Below are positions 15,750 to 64,000 of a stretch of 64,000 nucleotides of DNA, piece after piece; positions within the stretch are counted from its first letter, which is position 1, and each line of letters opens with the position of its first letter. Location of the stretch: assembly GCF_025150745.1 (NCBI RefSeq), contig NZ_CP102282.1, positions 1,065,501 to 1,129,500 on the forward strand. The letters are read 5' to 3'. Below the pieces are notes generated by a model that was not told the origin of the DNA, searched no databases, and saw nothing but the letters and a program-made list of their open reading frames with translations. The position numbers were made by a program, and so were the translations under genes. Source of the stretch: Eubacterium ventriosum. GTDB taxonomy: Bacteria > Bacillota > Clostridia > Lachnospirales > Lachnospiraceae.

Positions 15750-16073
15750 TTACGTGTCATATAACATTTCCTTTCGCTGACACGTAATTATTCTCGAAAT
15801 ATTAATGAAATTTCTAGTAATTACGTGTGGTACAACGTTTCGACTCACCGACACGTAAATTCAGCCGAAAGGACAAGCTAAGTTTCAATAAATTACGTGT
15901 GGTATAACGTTTCGGCTCACCGACACGTAAATCCAGTCGAAAGGACAAGCTAAAATTCAATAAATTACGTGTGGTACAACGTTTCGGCTCACCGACACGT
16001 AAATTCAGCCGAAAGGACAAGCTAAAATTCAATAATTACGTGTCATACAACATTTTCGCTCTATGACACGTAG
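15750..16073. repeat. array of five 38-nt palindromic units, period 71-72 bp (array 1)
   Basis: Units at 15750-15787, 15821-15858, 15893-15930, 15965-16002 and 16036-16073. Each begins TTACGTGT and ends ACACGTAA (the last ends CACGTAG). Units 1 and 5 have CA next to the left arm and TG next to the right arm; units 2-4 have GG and CC there, so base pairing is kept. The 33-34-nt spacers between units 2, 3, 4 and 5 are nearly identical and contain AGCCGAAA, complementary to TTTCGGCT in the unit loop. It fills most of the 585-bp gap between bsh and the convergent oxidoreductase gene. Short open frames through the array are by-products of the repetition. A related array lies at 54922-55243. Confidence 0.9.
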
Positions 16074-16189
16074 TCGTGACCGAAAAAACAACTTATACTG
16101 CCCCCAGAGTGTGGACATCTCCACGGACGACTTTGTACGGAAAATGGAGCGAAAATCTTCAAAAAACACAAATAGAAACTAATCTCAAA

Positions 16190-17642: not shown

Positions 17643-17985
17643 TCAAAATCCTCCTAAATGTAATAATTAAAGTAAATTAAAAATACTTTTTTGCACACAA
17701 AAATACCGCAAAATAAAATTCACCTATAATAAAGATTATAGATAACCATTTGCGGCAGTTAGTAGAAACGTTCATCCATATCATGAACTTATATAATCCT
17801 TTGATATGATAGCAAAATAAGAAGAAAAAATCAATAAAAAATAAACAAATTAGCGTATTAAAAGCTGTATATTTTTAGCAAAAAAATAAGCAAAGCAATG
17901 CTACGAAAAATTAGACATTTGTGTTAAAATATAGAAAGAGATAGAAAACAAAAGAAAAAGAATGAAGTGGAGGAAGTGAATACTT
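17643..17985. other. intergenic region, divergent promoters expected
   Basis: A 343-bp AT-rich gap between a minus-strand oxidoreductase gene and a plus-strand regulator gene. It should hold promoters for both. An inverted repeat CATATCA / TGATATG with about 18 bp between arms lies near 17777-17808 and could be an operator. No convincing -35/-10 pair and no gene was seen. Confidence 0.5.
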
Positions 17986-20317: not shown

Positions 20318-20508
20318 ATTTTTTTTACACAGATTGCCAAAGCAATCTGTGCCCCCAAAATTCGTATATCGTGAAACTGTTGTTTCACGATATTACTCAT
20401 TTTGGGGCGCCTTCTAAGGTCATTACTCCACCTTTGTGCAAGCACAGGTGGAGTATGACCTTGAAGGCTGTAAAAAAAATTAGAACATCCGAGGGAAGGA
20501 TGTTCTAA
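20318..20508. repeat. cruciform-like element: four-way junction plus adjacent hairpin
   Basis: Outer stem ATTTTTTTTAC (20318-20328) with GTAAAAAAAAT (20470-20480). Inside are three arms laid end to end. Arm A: ACAGATTG 20329-20336 / CAATCTGT 20343-20350. Arm B: CCCCAAAAT 20353-20361 / ATTTTGGGG 20399-20407 enclosing a perfect 12-bp stem 20366-20377 / 20382-20393. Arm C: GCCTTC 20409-20414 / GAAGGC 20463-20468, then AAGGTCA / TGACCTT, then TACTCCACCT / AGGTGGAGTA 20424-20455. Almost no base is left unpaired at the junction. A further 11-bp hairpin at 20480-20508 would act as a terminator on the minus strand, where it is followed by eight T. No gene is seen in the 402-bp gap 20310-20711. Confidence 0.85.
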
Positions 20509-23546: not shown

Positions 23547-23565
23547 TAAGTTAATTATATTGTTA

Positions 23566-23639
23566 GATATGTCAAGAAAAGGGATTCTTTGCAAACGATA
23601 AAATCAACGTGTTTGCATGAATCCCTTTTTGGACATATC
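23566..23639. terminator. long bidirectional terminator hairpin
   Basis: Between two convergent genes. Outer arms GATATGTC (23566-23573) and GACATATC (23632-23639); main stem AAAAGGGATTC (23577-23587) with GAATCCC (23619-23625), flanked by T on one side and A on the other, so it can end transcripts from both directions. The loop contains a remnant of a repeat element (23590-23617). Confidence 0.85.
23590..23617 (-). repeat. 28-bp remnant of the structured repeat family
   Basis: Read on the minus strand it is TGCAAACACGTTGATTTT joined directly to ATCGTTTGCA. These are exactly the first 18 and last 10 bases of the 136-bp core at 63824-63959. It therefore looks like an internally deleted copy placed in the loop of the terminator at 23566-23639. 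Confidence 0.75.
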
Positions 23640-24502: not shown

Positions 24503-25648
24503 TTACATAATTTTTCTAAATAATTCTTTGAAATCTTCAACACTTGCATCTTTTGGATTTCCAGGTGCACAAGCATCTGCAGCAGCAGATTCAGCAAGGA
24601 ACTGTAAATCTTCTTCTTTTATTGCTTCAAGTTTTGAAGGAATTCCAACATCTGCTGATAACTGTTTTACAGCATCAATTGCAGCTTTTCTGTATTCTTC
24701 AACTGACATTGAGTCAACACCTTCAACGCCAAGTGCACGAGCAATTTCTCTGTACTTTTCTCCAGTGCATTCCTGGTTAAATTCCATAACAATTGGAAGC
24801 ATCATAGCACAGGCAACACCATGTGGTGTATCATAAACGGCACCAAGTGTATGAGCCATGGAGTGTGCAATACCAAGACCTACGTTAGAGAAGCCCATTC
24901 CTGCAATGTACTGACCAAGAGCCATTCCTTCACGGCCTTCTTTTGTATTTTCAACAGCACCACGAAGTGATTTGCCAATAATTTCGATAGCTTTAAGATG
25001 GAACATATCTGTCATTTCCCAAGCAGCCTTTGTTGTGTAACCTTCAATTGCGTGAGTGAGAGCATCCATACCTGTTGAAGCGGTAAGTCCTTTAGGCATT
25101 GATGACATCATATCCGGGTCAACAATTGCAATAATTGGCATATCGTGTGGATCAACACAAACGAATTTACGTTTTCTTTCAACGTCTGTGATAACGTAGT
25201 TAATTGTAACTTCTGCAGCAGTTCCGGCTGTTGTTGGTACAGCGATAATAGGAACGCAAGGTTTCTTAGTAGGTGCAACACCTTCAAGACTACGAACGTC
25301 TTCGAATTCAGGATTTGCAATAATGATTCCAATAGCTTTAGCTGTATCCATTGAAGAACCACCACCGATTGCGATTATGTAATCAGCTCCAGAATCTTTG
25401 AAAGCCTGAACACCGTGCTGAACATTTTGAATAGTAGGATTAGCTTTAATATCTGAATAAATTTCGTAAGCTAAATCGTTCTTGTCCAAGATGTCTGTAA
25501 CCTTAGATGTAACATTAAATTTGATAAGATCAGGATCAGAACAAACAAAAGCTTTCTTAAATGCGTGTGCTTTTGCTTCTGTTGCTATTTCATCAATAGC
25601 TCCTGCTCCGTGATAAGATGTTGTGTTTAACATAATTCTGTTTGCCAT
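24503..25648 (-). CDS. fucO: lactaldehyde reductase (iron-containing alcohol dehydrogenase)
   Basis: A 381-residue group III, iron-dependent alcohol dehydrogenase very similar to E. coli FucO over its whole length. The NAD-binding loop is IIAIGGGSSMDTAKAIGI near 93. RSLEGVAPTKKP and TTAGTAAEVTINYVITD follow. The metal ligands lie in TGMDALTHAIEGY (D and H, near 193-205) and in HSMAHTLGAVYDTPHG (two His, near 263-277). It reduces L-lactaldehyde to 1,2-propanediol with NADH, usually in fucose or rhamnose fermentation, but no sugar-breakdown genes adjoin it. The upstream leader contains a copy of the structured repeat family. The ribosome site on the minus strand is AAAGGAGA. Confidence 0.93.
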   Translation of the reverse strand: MANRIMLNTTSYHGAGAIDEIATEAKAHAFKKAFVCSDPDLIKFNVTSKVTDILDKNDLAYEIYSDIKANPTIQNVQHGVQAFKDSGADYIIAIGGGSSMDTAKAIGIIIANPEFEDVRSLEGVAPTKKPCVPIIAVPTTAGTAAEVTINYVITDVERKRKFVCVDPHDMPIIAIVDPDMMSSMPKGLTASTGMDALTHAIEGYTTKAAWEMTDMFHLKAIEIIGKSLRGAVENTKEGREGMALGQYIAGMGFSNVGLGIAHSMAHTLGAVYDTPHGVACAMMLPIVMEFNQECTGEKYREIARALGVEGVDSMSVEEYRKAAIDAVKQLSADVGIPSKLEAIKEEDLQFLAESAAADACAPGNPKDASVEDFKELFRKIM

Positions 25649-25706: not shown

Positions 25707-25884
25707 ATCCGCCACAGAAAATTTCAGTGCAAACACGTTACTTTTTTTATTTTGCTCCGCCGCTTATTGTAAAACAAAAATCAAAACTCGCTTACGCTCA
25801 GACAGTTGATTTTTGCTTTACGCTATGCTCGCAAAATTTCAAAAAGTTGCCTATCTTTTGCAACTGAAGTTTTCTGTGACGGAT
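25707..25884. repeat. structured repeat family, copy 1
   Basis: Outer arms ATCCGCCACAG... (25707-25727) and their complement (25864-25884) match at 19 of 21 positions. The 135-bp core is 25728-25862. Inner stem 25769-25784 / 25806-25821 pairs at 15 of 16. A smaller stem is ACTTTTT 25740-25746 / AAAAAGT 25841-25847. The apical loop has AACTCGC and ACGCTCAGACAG. It lies in the 5' region of fucO. The stretch 25885-26135 beyond it is AT-rich and probably holds the fucO promoter, read on the minus strand near a TTAAAAT-type -10 at about 25940; no gene was seen there. Confidence 0.85.
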
Positions 25885-26620: not shown

Positions 26621-28306
26621 ATGAGTGGAATATTAATGATGGTTATAGCCATAGTAGTTCTTGGCGGTGCTTATCTGTTATATGGTCGTTATCTTCAGAA
26701 CAAATGGGGTATCGATCCAAACGCTAAGACACCAGCTTATGAGATGGAAGATGGAGTTGACTATGTACCTGCAGACACAAACGTTGTTTTTGGACATCAG
26801 TTTGCATCAATCGCAGGAGCCGGTCCTATTAACGGACCTATCCAGGCAGCTATTTTTGGATGGTTACCTGTTTTGCTTTGGGTTTTAATTGGTGGTGTTT
26901 TCTTCGGAGCAGTTCAGGATTTTGCTTCAATGTATGCATCAGTTAAAAACAAAGGTAGAACAATAGGTTTTATTATTGAAGAGTACATTGGTAGAGTTGG
27001 TAAGAAATTATTCTTAGCTTTCTGTTGGTTATTCTGTATTCTTGTAATCGCAGCTTTCGCTGATGTAGTAGCAGGAACATTTAACGGATTTAACATTGAA
27101 ACAGGTGCAAAAGTTGCAGCTAACGGCTCAGTTGCCATGACATCAATTATCTTTATTGTTGAAGCTGTAGCACTTGGTATGTTATTAAAATATGGTAAAT
27201 TAAACAAATGGGTTAACACAGCAATTGCAATTGCACTTCTTATTTTCGCAGTAGTAGTTGGTCTTAAGTGCCCGGTTTATTTATCAAGAGAAGTATGGCA
27301 CATCATTATTTTTGCTTACGTATTAGTAGCATGTGTTGCGCCGGTTTGGGCATTACTTCAGCCAAGAGATTACCTTAACAGTTACTTACTTATATTTATG
27401 ATTGTTGGTGCAATTATTGGTGTATTCGTTGCTAATCCATCATGTAACCTTGCAGCATTTAATGGTTTCAATGTTGATGGACAGTACTTATTCCCAATCT
27501 TGTTTGTAACAATTGCATGTGGTGCCGTTTCAGGTTTCCATTCACTTGTTTCATCAGGTACAGCATCAAAGCAGATTAAAAATGAAAAAAATATGCTTCC
27601 TGTTTCATTCGGTGCAATGTTAATGGAAAGTATGCTTGCAGTTATCGCACTTATCGCAGTTGCATCATTTGCAACAGGTGAAGCAGCAAAGCAGGGACTT
27701 GTTACACAGCCTCAGATTTTTGCAGGAGCTATTGCAAACTTCTTATCAGTAGCAGGTTTGCCTCATCAGTTGGTATTTACATTAATTAACCTTGCTGTTT
27801 CAGCATTTGCTTTAACATCACTTGACTCTGTAGCCAGAGTAGGAAGACTTTCATTCCAGGAATTCTTCATTGATGATGATACAGATATGGACAACTTAAA
27901 CCCATTCATGAAAGTAGTAACAAACAAATATTTTGCAACAATCTTAACATTAGTACTTTCATACTTACTTGCAAAAGTTGGTTATGCAGAAATCTGGCCA
28001 TTATTTGGTTCAGCTAACCAGTTATTATCAGTATTAGCATTAGTTGCATGTGCTGTATTCTTAAAGAAAACAAAACGTCAGGGCGCTATGCTTTGGATTC
28101 CAATGTTCTTTATGATGGCAGTAACATTTACAGCACTTGGAATGACAATCTACAGATTAGGTGGTCAGTTATTTACAACAGGATTAACATTTGGTATGAC
28201 ATTACAGTTAATCTTTGCAGTATTGTTATTATGCCTTGGTGTAATTGTAGCAATCCAGGGTGTGAGAAAGCTTTTTGAAAAAACAAACAAAGCAGTAGAA
28301 GCTTAA
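26621..28306 (+). CDS. cstA: CstA family transporter
   Basis: A 561-residue membrane protein with about 15 helices, the short form of CstA found in Clostridia (E. coli CstA is about 700). Visible family motifs: YLLYGRYLQNKWGID near 20, TNVVFGHQFASIAGAGPINGPI near 53-74, GAVSGFHSLVSSGTASKQI near 305-325, and LTSLDSVARVGRLSFQEFF near 395. CstA-type proteins import pyruvate or peptides. Control by a T-box suggests that here the cargo supplies an amino acid, possibly isoleucine or peptides containing it. It has its own terminator and stands alone. Confidence 0.9.
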   Translation: MSGILMMVIAIVVLGGAYLLYGRYLQNKWGIDPNAKTPAYEMEDGVDYVPADTNVVFGHQFASIAGAGPINGPIQAAIFGWLPVLLWVLIGGVFFGAVQDFASMYASVKNKGRTIGFIIEEYIGRVGKKLFLAFCWLFCILVIAAFADVVAGTFNGFNIETGAKVAANGSVAMTSIIFIVEAVALGMLLKYGKLNKWVNTAIAIALLIFAVVVGLKCPVYLSREVWHIIIFAYVLVACVAPVWALLQPRDYLNSYLLIFMIVGAIIGVFVANPSCNLAAFNGFNVDGQYLFPILFVTIACGAVSGFHSLVSSGTASKQIKNEKNMLPVSFGAMLMESMLAVIALIAVASFATGEAAKQGLVTQPQIFAGAIANFLSVAGLPHQLVFTLINLAVSAFALTSLDSVARVGRLSFQEFFIDDDTDMDNLNPFMKVVTNKYFATILTLVLSYLLAKVGYAEIWPLFGSANQLLSVLALVACAVFLKKTKRQGAMLWIPMFFMMAVTFTALGMTIYRLGGQLFTTGLTFGMTLQLIFAVLLLCLGVIVAIQGVRKLFEKTNKAVEA

Positions 28307-52708: not shown

Positions 52709-53625
52709 AGAAGCATTGCAAAAGCAATCAGGGAAGATTGGCAAAACACATATTAGGCAAGTATTGTAGAATTAGTCAATTAAGAAATGGTTGTATTTTA
52801 AATAAGATTTGTGTGGGATTTACTTTGATTTTTTTATTTGGCTGTTTGGTCTTAAGCAATGGAAAAGTTTTGGCAGAAAACGCTGTAGACATTGGTAAAC
52901 TTTGCAATCTTATGGTTCAGGTGCCGAAAGAAAATCCGGAGCTTAATAACGCACAATTGCAAGTGAAATTGTACAAAACAGCTGATATTACAAAATTGTG
53001 GAAATACAACACAATAGGAAATTATGAACTAATGAACAATTATGAATATTCCTTTATTAATGGTAATAACGTAATTGAAAAAATAAAGGTTAACCTAAAT
53101 GAAATAGACAGAAATACCACGGCAAAGGAATGGGAGGGGCTTGCTTTTGTGGCAAAAGAAGTGGCAAAGAGCGAAAAGCCTACTGCCGTGGCAACAATTG
53201 CTGACGGAAAAGCTGTTTTTCAGGGGCTTCAACCAGGACTTTATTTGGTGGAAGTGAACGACGCAATTGTAAATGGTAAAGCATACCGATTTATGGCATA
53301 TTTGATTTCAGTGCCTAACTACAACGCCCAAAATCCTGCTGGAGAAAAAATAGAATACAACGTTGACACAGAGTTGAAAGTGGAAGTAAACGATAACAAC
53401 ATAACAACTCAGGTAACCACGTTTAAACCAACAGAAAACACAACAAAATCTAAAGCCAAAACATTAAAAACACCAAAGAATCAGCCGGATGAAACTTCAA
53501 AATATTTTGGCATATTGCCACAAACAGGGCAGCTTAAGTGGATTATTCCTGCCCTACTAATAGTAGGATTTGGTTGTATAGGAATAGGAATACAACTACT
53601 AAAAAAGGAAAATAAAAGTGAATAA
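52705..53625 (+). CDS. minor pilin, LPXTG
   Basis: A 306-residue surface protein. The start is TTG at 52705, overlapping the sortase stop (TTGA) and preceded by AAGGGGGAG. A basic N-terminal region of about 35 residues leads to a signal helix (VGFTLIFLFGCLVLS). The pilin domain (LQVKLYKTADITKLWKYN, GKAVFQGLQPGLYLVEV) resembles small SpaA/CnaB-like minor pilins. The end carries LPQTGQ, a hydrophobic helix (WIIPALLIVGFGCIGIGI) and a basic tail. It probably anchors the pilus to the wall or decorates it. It overlaps the next sortase gene by 8 bp. Confidence 0.85.
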   Translation: MKKHCKSNQGRLAKHILGKYCRISQLRNGCILNKICVGFTLIFLFGCLVLSNGKVLAENAVDIGKLCNLMVQVPKENPELNNAQLQVKLYKTADITKLWKYNTIGNYELMNNYEYSFINGNNVIEKIKVNLNEIDRNTTAKEWEGLAFVAKEVAKSEKPTAVATIADGKAVFQGLQPGLYLVEVNDAIVNGKAYRFMAYLISVPNYNAQNPAGEKIEYNVDTELKVEVNDNNITTQVTTFKPTENTTKSKAKTLKTPKNQPDETSKYFGILPQTGQLKWIIPALLIVGFGCIGIGIQLLKKENKSE

Positions 53626-54184
53626 AAAAATATCTGCCGTAGTTACACTAGTAGGTTTAATACTTATAATGTGTGCTATGGCAGTTTTGTTTCACAACAA
53701 AAAAGAAGACAATCTGGCACAAAAATCATCCAACACAGTTCTGTCAAGTCTGAAAGAAAAAATAGAAGAAAGCAATTTAAAAACTTCGGATGAGGAAAAA
53801 GATTTGAACAAGGATTTGAATCAATATGACGGCTACATCAAAATTCCAAAGTTGAATCTTGAATTGCCTGTAATGAAAAAACCAACTCAGGCAAACTTAA
53901 AAAAATCACCATGTATATATTCAGGCACGGCAAAAGATTCAAACCTGATAATAGCCGCCCATAACTACAGCGCCCACTTTGGCAAAATAAACCAACTTGA
54001 AAACGGCGACAAAGTACAATACACCGACTTACAAAACAACACCTACACCTACTGTGTAACCGCTAAAGAAAAAATAAATGGCAGCAACTCAGAGCAAATG
54101 CAAAACGAAAACTATGCACTAACCTTATTCACTTGTGACTATACAGGGAGGGATAGGATTACAATAAGATGCGAGAGGAAATGA
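53618..54184 (+). CDS. second sortase of the pilus operon
   Basis: A 188-residue sortase, shorter than class C and without a C-terminal helix. The signal/anchor is residues 6-25. The catalytic domain has IKIPKLNLELPVMKK near 73, His in IIAAHNYSAHFGKINQL near 111, Cys in LTLFTCDYTGR near 172, and Arg in RITIRCER. The size and the motif LTLFTCDY fit class D or B-like housekeeping/base-anchoring sortases. It may attach the finished pilus to peptidoglycan. It starts with GTG, and the second half has T-poor, C-ending codons unlike the rest of the region. Confidence 0.85.
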   Translation: MNKKISAVVTLVGLILIMCAMAVLFHNKKEDNLAQKSSNTVLSSLKEKIEESNLKTSDEEKDLNKDLNQYDGYIKIPKLNLELPVMKKPTQANLKKSPCIYSGTAKDSNLIIAAHNYSAHFGKINQLENGDKVQYTDLQNNTYTYCVTAKEKINGSNSEQMQNENYALTLFTCDYTGRDRITIRCERK

Positions 54185-54287: not shown

Positions 54288-54529
54288 AATATAGTGTTTT
54301 CTGGAATATTTTTAGTCTGATAGTATACAGAAAATTTTGGAAACAAACAATAGGCAGTGTTGCGCAATTTTGCGAGCATAGTGTATGTGGAAAAACGACT
54401 GTTTGAGCCATTAGGCGAGTTTCGTTTTTCCACATACAATGGACGGCGGAGCAAAATAAGAAACACAACGTGTTTGTGCCAAAATTTTCTGGGACTATCA
54501 GAAGTGAGAAATAACAAAAACACTATATT
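54288..54529 (-). repeat. structured repeat family, copy 4 (minus orientation, long arms)
   Basis: Core of 133 bp at 54344-54476. Nested outer arms: AATATAGTGTTTT (54288-54300) / AAAACACTATATT (54517-54529); TCTGATAGT (54316-54324) / ACTATCAGA (54494-54502); CAGAAAATTTTGG (54328-54340) / CCAAAATTTTCTG (54479-54491). Inner stem of 17 bp: TGTATGTGGAAAAACGA (54382-54398) with its complement (54422-54438). The loop motifs match copies 1 and 2 when read on the minus strand. It fills most of the gap 54185-54553 after the pilus operon. Confidence 0.87.
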
Positions 54530-54553: not shown

Positions 54554-54772
54554 ATGAAAATACGTTTTAGATCAATTAATGCAATTGAGGAATTTCTAGA
54601 CATTGTCAACAGATTTTCAGCAGAAATCGACATTAAATCAAAAAGGACAACCGTTGACGGAAAATCAATGATGGGAATTTTTAGTTTGGACTTGTCAAAT
54701 CCAGTGGAGGTTACTGCAATTGGAAATGAATCAGAGCAGGTATATGAGGCAATAAGCAAATATGCGGCGTAG
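54554..54772 (+). CDS. HPr-like protein lacking the catalytic histidine
   Basis: A 72-residue protein with the HPr fold pattern: RFRSINAIEEFLDIVNRFSAEIDI, VDGKSMMGIFSLDL near 34-47 (the region that holds regulatory Ser46 in true HPr), and EQVYEAISKY at the end. The N-terminal GLHARPA motif with the phosphorylated His15 is missing, so it cannot relay PEP phosphate as HPr does. Such His-less HPr paralogues are seen in Lachnospiraceae-like genomes, with no known function. A strong TAGGAGG precedes the ATG. A 38-bp tandem duplication covers its last codons and stop. Confidence 0.8.
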   Translation: MKIRFRSINAIEEFLDIVNRFSAEIDIKSKRTTVDGKSMMGIFSLDLSNPVEVTAIGNESEQVYEAISKYAA

Positions 54773-54816
54773 GCTACATATATGAAGCAATAAGCAAATA
54801 TGCGGCGTAGGCTACA
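54741..54816 (+). repeat. 38-bp tandem duplication at the end of the HPr-like gene
   Basis: 54741-54778 and 54779-54816 are identical except for one base (TATATGAGGC versus TATATGAAGC). The first copy holds the last codons and the stop; the second is a non-coding echo, recent by its high identity. Confidence 0.9.
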
Positions 54817-54866: not shown

Positions 54867-54921
54867 ATGCATAAAATAGATTTTGGAAAAACAAAGTTTA
54901 AAAGCTGTTTGAAAATAGGGA

Positions 54922-55243
54922 TTACGTGTCACAGAGAAAATTTTTTATATGACAAGTAAAATCTCTTGGGTTTTATGCAATTTAATTGGGGATTACGTGT
55001 CACAGAGAAAAAACTTTATATAACAAGTAAAATCTCTTGGGTTTTATGCAATTTAATTGGGGATTACGTGTCACAGAGAAAAAATTTTATATAACAAGTA
55101 ATTTTTAAATTTTTCAGTATAATTTGACTGGGAATTACGTGTCAGATGAAAAAAATGTTAAATGACAAGTAATTACTTATTATAATGCTTATATTTTCCT
55201 AAAAATTACGTGTCATATATCAAAAATATAATATCACACGTAA
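54922..55243. repeat. array of five 38-nt palindromic units, period exactly 71 bp (array 2)
   Basis: Units at 54922-54959, 54993-55030, 55064-55101, 55135-55172 and 55206-55243. All begin TTACGTGTCA; the right arms are TGACAAGTAA, TAACAAGTAA or CACACGTAA. The first two 33-nt spacers are identical, the last two are unrelated to them, yet spacing stays at 71. It is related to the array at 15750-16073. The 760-bp gap 54773-55532 also holds a terminator before it and the MarR promoter after it; 55244-55426 shows no recognisable feature. Confidence 0.9.
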
Positions 55244-55426
55244 TTCTTATCCATTACGAAGTTCTGAACAAAAAACGCTGTAATATCCGTAAATAATTGA
55301 TTAAAACTTGTTTGGGACAAGTCCAAGCTCCCACGTCCACGCTTTACCACAACGATTTTCGGCTGTGTTAGTACAAGAATAAATTTGTCCATTCACAACC
55401 ATCACATTTTATTTTCCACCAAGTTG

Positions 55427-62744: not shown

Positions 62745-62811
62745 CATTGGAAAAAGTACAGAAAAATATTATAATCATATTAGTTCAAAATTGATTGGGA
62801 GTGGAGCTAAC

Positions 62812-63762
62812 ATGAATAATAACGAATTTACTTATATAAAAGAAGTGGCAAAACAGAAAAGTTTCTCAAAGGCTTCAAAAGCTTTGGGAATATCCCAGCC
62901 GGCATTAAGCAATTACATTAAAAAACTGGAAGACAGAATGGGTGTATTGCTTTTTGACCGAAGTATTTCTCCGATTGAAATAACAGAGTTCGGCAAGGCA
63001 TATTTGGAATACGCAGAGGATGTTATATCAGCCACAGACAGACTTAATGATGTTATGTCAGATTTGCAGGATTTAAAAAAAGGAGAAATAAAAATAGGAA
63101 GTGTTGTATGTTTTTCAACAACATATTTGCCGGGACCAATGTCAGTCTTCCACAAGAAATATCCGGGAATTACTTTTAAATTAACAGAAGAAAAAGTCCC
63201 TGAAATAATGAATAAATGCCTTTTGGGAGACATTGATATTTTCCTGACAGATGGAAGAATCGATAGCGAGTTATTTGATAAGGAAACTCTTTTTGAAGAA
63301 AGATTGCTTATGGTTGTTCCGAAAAACCTGGCAATTAATGAAGAAATAGGAGAATACCAGATTCCAATAGAAAAATTACTAAGTGACAAAATTGACTATT
63401 CATCAGTGAAAACATTGGACATAAGCAGAATGAAGGATGAAGAGTTTGTTTTGTTAAACGAGGACCAGCATGTAAGACGCATGGTAGACAGCATATTTGA
63501 AAAAGCCGGTTTTACACCTAACGTAATATTGCAAACATCTCAGACAGTAACAGGGCTTGCCATGACACTTGCCAATATGGGAATCTCTTTCGTTACAGAA
63601 ACAACCATAAAATACAACAACATAAAAAATCACGCATACTACTACAAGGTAGGCTCAGATGAAGATGCGGTCAGAACAATGTGCGTGGCGTATAAGAAAG
63701 GGAAATACATATCTAAGGCGTGCAGGAAGTTTATAGATACGCTGAAAGAAGAGTTGGAATAA
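62812..63762 (+). CDS. LysR-type transcriptional regulator
   Basis: A 316-residue LysR regulator. The HTH is residues 1-60 (FTYIKEVAKQKSFSKASKALG, SQPALSNYIKKLEDRMGVLLFDRS), with the effector domain at 90-300 (IKIGSVVCFSTTYLPGPMSVF). The start is the ATG at 62812 behind GTGGAGC. It lies 68 bp after the ABC importer and is probably its regulator, responding to the imported compound or a sulfur signal as Cbl/CysB-like proteins do. The last third has T-poor codons with ACAACC-type runs. Confidence 0.9.
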   Translation: MNNNEFTYIKEVAKQKSFSKASKALGISQPALSNYIKKLEDRMGVLLFDRSISPIEITEFGKAYLEYAEDVISATDRLNDVMSDLQDLKKGEIKIGSVVCFSTTYLPGPMSVFHKKYPGITFKLTEEKVPEIMNKCLLGDIDIFLTDGRIDSELFDKETLFEERLLMVVPKNLAINEEIGEYQIPIEKLLSDKIDYSSVKTLDISRMKDEEFVLLNEDQHVRRMVDSIFEKAGFTPNVILQTSQTVTGLAMTLANMGISFVTETTIKYNNIKNHAYYYKVGSDEDAVRTMCVAYKKGKYISKACRKFIDTLKEELE

Positions 63763-63805
63763 AAGAAAATTATAGGTGTGGTTCTTATTAATTTTGATTG
63801 ATATT

Positions 63806-63978
63806 TATAAACGAAAACGGGTTTGCAAACACGTTGATTTTCTTATTTTGCTCCGTCATTTATTATAAGACAAAAATCAAAACTCGCCTACGGCTCAAAC
63901 AGTTGATTTTTGTCTTAAATTATACTCGCAAAATTTCGAAAATCTGCCTATCGTTTGCAGAACCCGTTTTCGTTTATA
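63806..63978. repeat. structured repeat family, copy 2 (best example)
   Basis: Outer arms TATAAACGAAAACGGGTT (63806-63823) and the exact complement (63961-63978). Core 136 bp at 63824-63959, closed by TGCAAAC / GTTTGCA with one bulged base. Further stems: GATTTTC (63836-63842) / GAAAATC (63938-63944); ATTTTGC (63845-63851) / GCAAAAT (63928-63934); TAAGACAAAAATCAA (63866-63880) with its complement (63903-63917). Apical loop 63881-63902. It lies downstream of the LysR gene and may help end its transcript. The remaining end of the window, 63979-64000, shows nothing. Confidence 0.9.
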
Positions 63979-64000
63979 CAATACAAAATTAATAATGTAC

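Follow-up and report, generated by a model that had tools for sequence, protein, structure and literature searches.

The hairpins of integron attC sites are recognised by their structure, with the stem sequence left free; their core boxes, which lie at the foot, are conserved and their tip is variable. MITEs are short, non-coding, multi-copy repeats with conserved terminal inverted repeats. The hairpin family described here, found in a 64,000-nucleotide stretch of the Eubacterium ventriosum genome (hereafter 'the window'), resembles attC sites in its free stem sequence but differs in that its tip is conserved. It resembles MITEs in being short, non-coding and present in many copies, but its outer arms differ between copies: a left arm set against right arms from other copies pairs at 47.0% of positions, compared with 83% within a copy (best offset chosen in both cases), so that the conserved terminal inverted repeats of a MITE are lacking.

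Chromosomal palindromes offer a closer likeness. As outlined in PMC3116915 and PMC3733652, REP, REPIN and BIME elements with RAYT are, like the hairpins here, chromosomal, mostly intergenic and multi-copy, with neighbours that are often inverted, and are likewise old and present in several phyla. REPs are given there as 20–40 bp in length and as carrying GTAG or CGTC, unpaired, at the foot, compared with ~180 to 400 bp for the hairpin described here (a 138-position core plus arms); CTAC, which reads GTAG on the other strand, is found at the right foot of 23 of the 56 copies in the related genomes G037 and G320. Unlike in REPs, identity resides in the tip and inner loops, the arm sequence is free and the element is not linked to a Y1 enzyme. 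The family works like an interspersed palindrome of the REP/REPIN type, but lies outside the REPs on size and enzyme linkage.

Quasipalindromes maintained by template switching are also alike, in that their arms are complementary by mutual copying and display multi-base compensated changes (PMC8794818, PMC7202029). The portions of those reports available to us do not treat quasipalindromes as members of a repeat family united by its tip, whereas here one tip recurs across genomes and phyla. Searches of the literature by tip sequence and by topic, with few subscription papers and preprints within reach, returned no published description of the element.

Hairpin copies in the window and in their own genome

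The window contains three copies, at the positions given in the original prediction, that by alignment share a core of ~134–138 bases. By folding, each forms a single hairpin, long and interrupted, in which pairing of the outer arms continues well past the core. These copies, a deletion derivative and the neighbouring genes are as follows.

23563-23639 (approximate), minus strand: deletion derivative without a tip (fold; weak covariance model match, E=4.23, at G000:C1:1089089-1089118)
24503-25648, minus strand: iron-containing alcohol dehydrogenase gene, its start being the left neighbour of copy 1 (Pfam)
25707-25884, plus strand: copy 1 (alignment, fold, covariance model)
25785-25806, plus strand: tip of copy 1, AACTCGCTTACGCTCAGACAGT (read from the sequence)
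26621-28306, plus strand: cstA, right neighbour of copy 1 (Pfam)
53618-54184: sortase-domain gene, neighbour of copy 2 (Pfam)
54288-54529, minus strand: copy 2 (alignment, fold, covariance model)
54398-54421, minus strand: tip of copy 2, AACTCGCCTAATGGCTCAAACAGT (read from the sequence)
54554-54772, plus strand: 72-aa ORF, other neighbour of copy 2, which we take to resemble HPr
62791-63762: LysR gene, on one side of copy 3, with the window end on the other (Pfam)
63785-63995, plus strand: copy 3, whole paired hairpin (fold, alignment; best covariance model score, 164.8 bits)
63881-63903, plus strand: tip of copy 3, AACTCGC-CTACG-GCTCAAACAGT (read from the sequence)

The segment first reported for copy 3 (63806-63978) is a valid part of that copy, but the region that pairs in the fold is wider (~63785-63995). 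The conserved blocks and three small stems (GATTTTC/GAAAATC, ACTTTTT/AAAAAGT and GTGTT/AACAC) agree with those quoted earlier; the assignment of inner stems to copies had been muddled, since the inner stem at 25.7 kb and at 63.8 kb is of the AAGACAAAAATCAA type and that at 54.3 kb of the TGTATGTGG type. The outer arms, previously called entirely different, do differ between copies but retain, by eye, traces of a shared, CAGAAATTTT-like composition.

The conserved tip comprises AACTCGC, a mini-hairpin and GCTCARACAGT, and the short inner loops are conserved as well. Read on the minus strand, the tip of copy 3 is CC-GTA-GG (a GNA triloop) and that of copy 1 is GC-GTAA-GC (a GNRA loop), while the corresponding loop of copy 2, ATTA, is neither. 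At two loci of the same genus (L062 and L065), the tip mini-hairpin is itself extended into a longer stem. The derivative at ~23563-23639 retains its outer arms and CAAACACGTTGATTTT/ATCGTTTGC, with the tip and nearly the entire core gone. Genes beside the copies and the derivative are ordinary by Pfam (VWA, methyltransferase, iron-containing alcohol dehydrogenase, CstA, sortase and LysR). The window also contains two similar arrays (15750-16085 and 54909-55255), each of five units spaced by 71–72 bp and each unit with a TTACGTGTCA...TGACACGTAA-like palindrome, and a 38-bp unit present twice in tandem (97%) at 54741-54816, overlapping the end of the 72-aa ORF.

A genome search for further copies, proposed along with the original prediction, found 30 full copies as well as broken ones. 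The tip pattern matched 26 times in the 2.86-Mb genome (with no match for the reversed control), and a covariance model built from the three window copies matched 39 places at E≤10 and 33 at E≤0.001, the full-length copies all scoring E≤2.1e-26. Three short derivatives, two of them from the model search and the third being that in the window, have kept their outer arms and lost the inner stem and tip. On crude ORF calls, 29 of the 30 copies could be placed relative to genes: 12 lie in a −,− arrangement, 7 in a +,+ arrangement, 6 between convergent and 4 between divergent genes. Co-orientation of copies with genes was considered and rejected, being weak on the same crude calls. Elements are present in six of 22 other genomes of the genus, and a blast of flanking sequences found no locus shared between those relatives and the genome studied here.

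The comparison with Rfam, also proposed at the outset, found no family that matches the hairpins. At gathering scores, the window contains a Clostridiales-1 RNA (20322-20476, minus strand, 96.9 bits) and a purine riboswitch (17719-17816, minus strand, 60 bits), with no match to any of the hairpin copies. A search of 12 loci at E≤0.1 likewise returned no family for the hairpin; its matches were to Clostridiales-1, tRNA and a miRNA model below its gathering score, the last of these matching both strands of one long hairpin at a score far under that threshold. In another genus, a Clostridiales-1 RNA (L068, 2895-3018) lies ~1.3 kb from a hairpin copy.

Covariation, pairing and change in the arms

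Standard pairs account for 95.7% of the 1316 pair cells formed by 44 pairs in the 30 copies, compared with a shuffled mean of 85.4%, and none of 500 shuffles reached the observed value; slid controls pair at most 49.4%. Because the 30 copies include the three founders and the alignment was fitted to the structure model, the slid controls represent the fairer comparison. Changes on both sides were found in 22 of the 44 pairs (129 cells, against a shuffled mean of 34.6), and the covariation score was likewise reached by none of 500 shuffles. The stems therefore covary as originally claimed, strongly in 30 copies and above every shuffle.

The type of pairing bears on the nature of the molecule. 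The 15 covarying columns (those with three or more compensated cells across the 30 copies) contain 417 Watson-Crick cells (122 of them compensated), one G-T, 15 A-C and 17 other cells. Given the near absence of G-T in these columns, the plus strand is by this sign not an RNA stem. The excess of A-C over G-T could reflect G-U wobble on the minus strand; the A-C cells are concentrated, eight of the 15 in one column and five in another. The outer arms were compared in 19 distinct copies (from 22 entries, of which two were not placed and one was a duplicate), where 317 of 380 positions pair and the exceptions include 16 G-T and 14 A-C, with no strand bias. DNA folding energies failed to separate the two strands.

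Two species of another genus in the same family (G037 and G320, with 37 and 19 tip matches) allow change in the arms to be followed between orthologous loci. Their elements possess the conserved core and an outer arm that is often ~55 bases in length and nearly perfect, with arms of ~130 nt in most copies, and often end sharply, in GGGCC on the left and TACTTTGGTGAT on the right. Six of 13 candidate locus pairs were counted: four matched by both flanks and two (L256/L234 and L242/L238) by one flank only. Three pairs were dropped: L258/L229 is nearly identical, L255/L233 has lost an arm and L099/L241 is fused. Another four matches, one-sided and pointing to other loci, were left out of the ortholog count.

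Beyond 70 nt from the tip (the outer arms), the six loci contain 254 unchanged pairs, 67 compensated changes, 15 single changes (6 G-T, 5 A-C and 4 other, again with no strand bias) and no shared mismatches. The compensated changes comprise 28 transitions and 39 transversions, compared with 523 and 253 in 8849 flank positions (Fisher p=4.5e-5). The two loci matched by one flank contribute 43 of the 67 changes, and the L256 locus may be rearranged, because its other flank matched a different locus (L229). Without L256/L234 the counts are 13 transitions to 22 transversions (p=3.9e-4), and without both one-flank loci they are 10 to 14 (p=0.014). In rRNA stems, PMC8794818 gives 61.0% of instantaneous compensated changes as transition-type, against 28 of 67 here. 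Outer arms have diverged at 24% of positions, compared with 8.8% for the aligned flanks. The inner core of the same loci behaves differently, with 292 pairs the same, 13 compensated, 30 single changes and 34 shared mismatches; its compensated changes are not transversion-rich (10 transitions to 3 transversions), and the shared mismatches indicate that the loops are held. Two-sided, transversion-rich change in the arms is what arm-to-arm copying, if it operates here, predicts.

Comparison of these species also revealed rearranged loci. At L099 and L241, two hairpins forming an inverted pair in one species correspond in the other to a single hairpin made of both left arms, a fusion by loop-to-loop deletion. 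An empty-site comparison at one presence/absence locus (L271 against G320) found 19 bp in place of 472 bp, and no clean insertion. A further locus (L231 against G037) displays a different arrangement.

The tip across bacteria and candidate enzymes

A scan of species genomes with the pattern AACTCGCN{2,12}GCTCARACAGT found the tip in at least 119 stretches from many phyla, on unrelated stems. The 80 titles listed include Proteobacteria, Nitrospirae, Bacteroidetes, Clostridia, Gastranaerophilales, Patescibacteria, Leptotrichia and others, although many of these records are metagenome bins whose names may be off. The tip is not confined to Lachnospiraceae, being met in many phyla among the matches listed. 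Some of these matches will be chance; among those listed, the stem beside the tip has at least seven of eight positions paired at 76 of 116 usable sites, compared with 36 of 2320 re-dealt controls. An open frame of at least 150 codons covers 25 of the 116 listed tip sites, compared with 996 of 1160 random positions, and 65 of 80 listed three-base tips are of the GNA type on the minus strand. At least 13 pairs of neighbouring tips less than 1 kb apart, collected by hand among the matches listed, comprise 10 that face each other, none that diverge and three pointing the same way; blast listings display further facing pairs. At Bacteroidetes loci L117, L125, L130, L145, L156, L197, L213 and similar ones, a second shared module like TTGATACAAAAAGTAACAAAAAAATCAAG precedes the tip hairpin.

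Within its phylum the element is patchy. A looser tip pattern matched 61 of 299 genomes of the family, with occasional control matches, while a stricter pattern matched 12 of 299 genomes of the phylum (including the genome studied here), with 1 to 37 matches each and none for the reversed control. The tip is rare in plasmid, phage and viral collections: the commonest tip form, used as a short query at E≤10 (which misses other tip forms), matched six of 72,556 plasmid records and three of 50,697 phage records (two of which are one phage), and the tip pattern was found in 15 stretches among 2.9 million viral contigs. At that threshold, this query with the commonest tip form had no match in any of the 5,426 E. 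coli genomes searched.

A Y1 or RAYT transposase was considered as the mover and rejected, being absent from the genome studied here and unsupported in its relatives. Y1_Tnp (PF01797) had no match in that genome, while the same search was positive in five of 14 control genomes. It is absent from seven of 15 genomes with at least four tip matches, compared with 124 of 299 overall (p=0.79, no association), and none of 27 Y1_Tnp matches, which include fragments of one gene and come from eight genomes, has a full tip in the flanks examined; a looser partial tip match flanks two (L315 and L330). The enzyme search, made with Y1_Tnp, thereby yielded no candidate for a mobilising enzyme. Loss of SbcCD, considered as a reason for the persistence of long palindromes, was likewise rejected, since an SbcD-type match (E≤0.001) is present in 34 of 35 genomes whether or not they carry copies (25 of them above the curated cut-off); the exception, G308, contains copies.

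Competing readings and a proposed DNA hairpin with arms copied from each other

The original prediction allowed for either a folded RNA or a DNA hairpin. A structured RNA, small or cis-regulatory, would have the minus-strand sequence, its inner loops rich in purines and its tip of the GNA or GNRA type. Strong covariation is consistent with it, as are the 15-to-1 ratio of A-C to G-T on the plus strand (G-U on the minus) and the 115 of 209 single mismatches, counted over loops and stems together, that are pyrimidine-pyrimidine on the plus strand and thus form purine loops on the minus. We nevertheless consider this reading unlikely, given a share of transition-type changes in the outer arms that falls below the rRNA-stem value (PMC8794818, in the part available), outer mismatches unbiased by strand both in the congeners and in the genome studied here, copies in every gene arrangement (on crude ORF calls) and the lack of an Rfam match. 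The single G-T cell in the covarying columns and the predominance of transversions among compensated changes in the congeners favour DNA over RNA. The suggestion of a small-RNA family is unsupported, although the A-C excess leaves some room for an RNA from the minus strand. A mobile structured element, the other form proposed, fits better; we infer the spread of the element from its copy number and patchy distribution.

If that spread were the work of a Y1 (RAYT-like) transposase since lost from this genome, the family would be a distant branch of the REP/REPIN elements. The mostly facing orientation of neighbouring tips recalls REP doublets (as described in part of PMC3116915), and the CTAC right foot in G037 and G320 (GTAG on the minus strand) points the same way; this origin is nonetheless improbable in view of an element several times REP length, the Y1_Tnp searches of the genome studied here and its controls, the tip-rich genomes that lack the enzyme and the Y1_Tnp matches that all lack a full tip. 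If the hairpins were intrinsic terminators or attenuators with a coincidentally shared tip, this would account for sites mostly outside long open frames and for copies 3' of genes in several relatives. Four of 29 copies, however, lie between divergent genes, arms exceed 100 nt in relatives, and termination does not need a tip common to many phyla, which together make this explanation very hard to credit.

There is a real family of DNA hairpins, broadly distributed and with a conserved tip, whose arms are most likely maintained by template switching between them, as the pattern of compensated change suggests. Stems are reported to arise and persist through template switching, and stable loops have been suggested to promote it (PMC8794818, in the sections available to us). 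Each copy would be a DNA hairpin, in cruciform or single-strand form, belonging to a very old chromosomal family of interspersed repeats. During replication, while the region is in single-stranded form, its structured tip (a mini-hairpin that on the minus strand is often of the GNA type) could let the growing strand snap back and use one arm as template for the other. Such copying would preserve complementarity while the sequence drifts, and one event might rewrite an arm. Selection would preserve the unpaired parts, probably because a putative protein that spreads or uses the element recognises them. As a whole explanation, a DNA hairpin family with selected tip and loops and with arms copied from each other by template switching is the one we regard as probable, with moderate confidence. 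A more sweeping version, that of self-writing DNA hairpins found throughout bacteria, whose tip nucleates snap-back synthesis, whose identity lies only in loops, whose arms are rewritten and which spread without Y1, we put forward only tentatively and with considerable doubt. If true, it would describe an element dependent on shape and tip rather than on stem sequence.

On our reading, these hairpins would serve as a warning that covariation in a stem is by itself no proof of a functional RNA. They would also provide a natural test bed for the homogenisation of palindrome arms in bacteria, in which paired arm changes can be read between species. If our reading is right, they would represent a conserved class of repeats, spanning many phyla, that has so far been without a name because its stems have no common sequence and normal repeat and homology searches therefore miss its copies.
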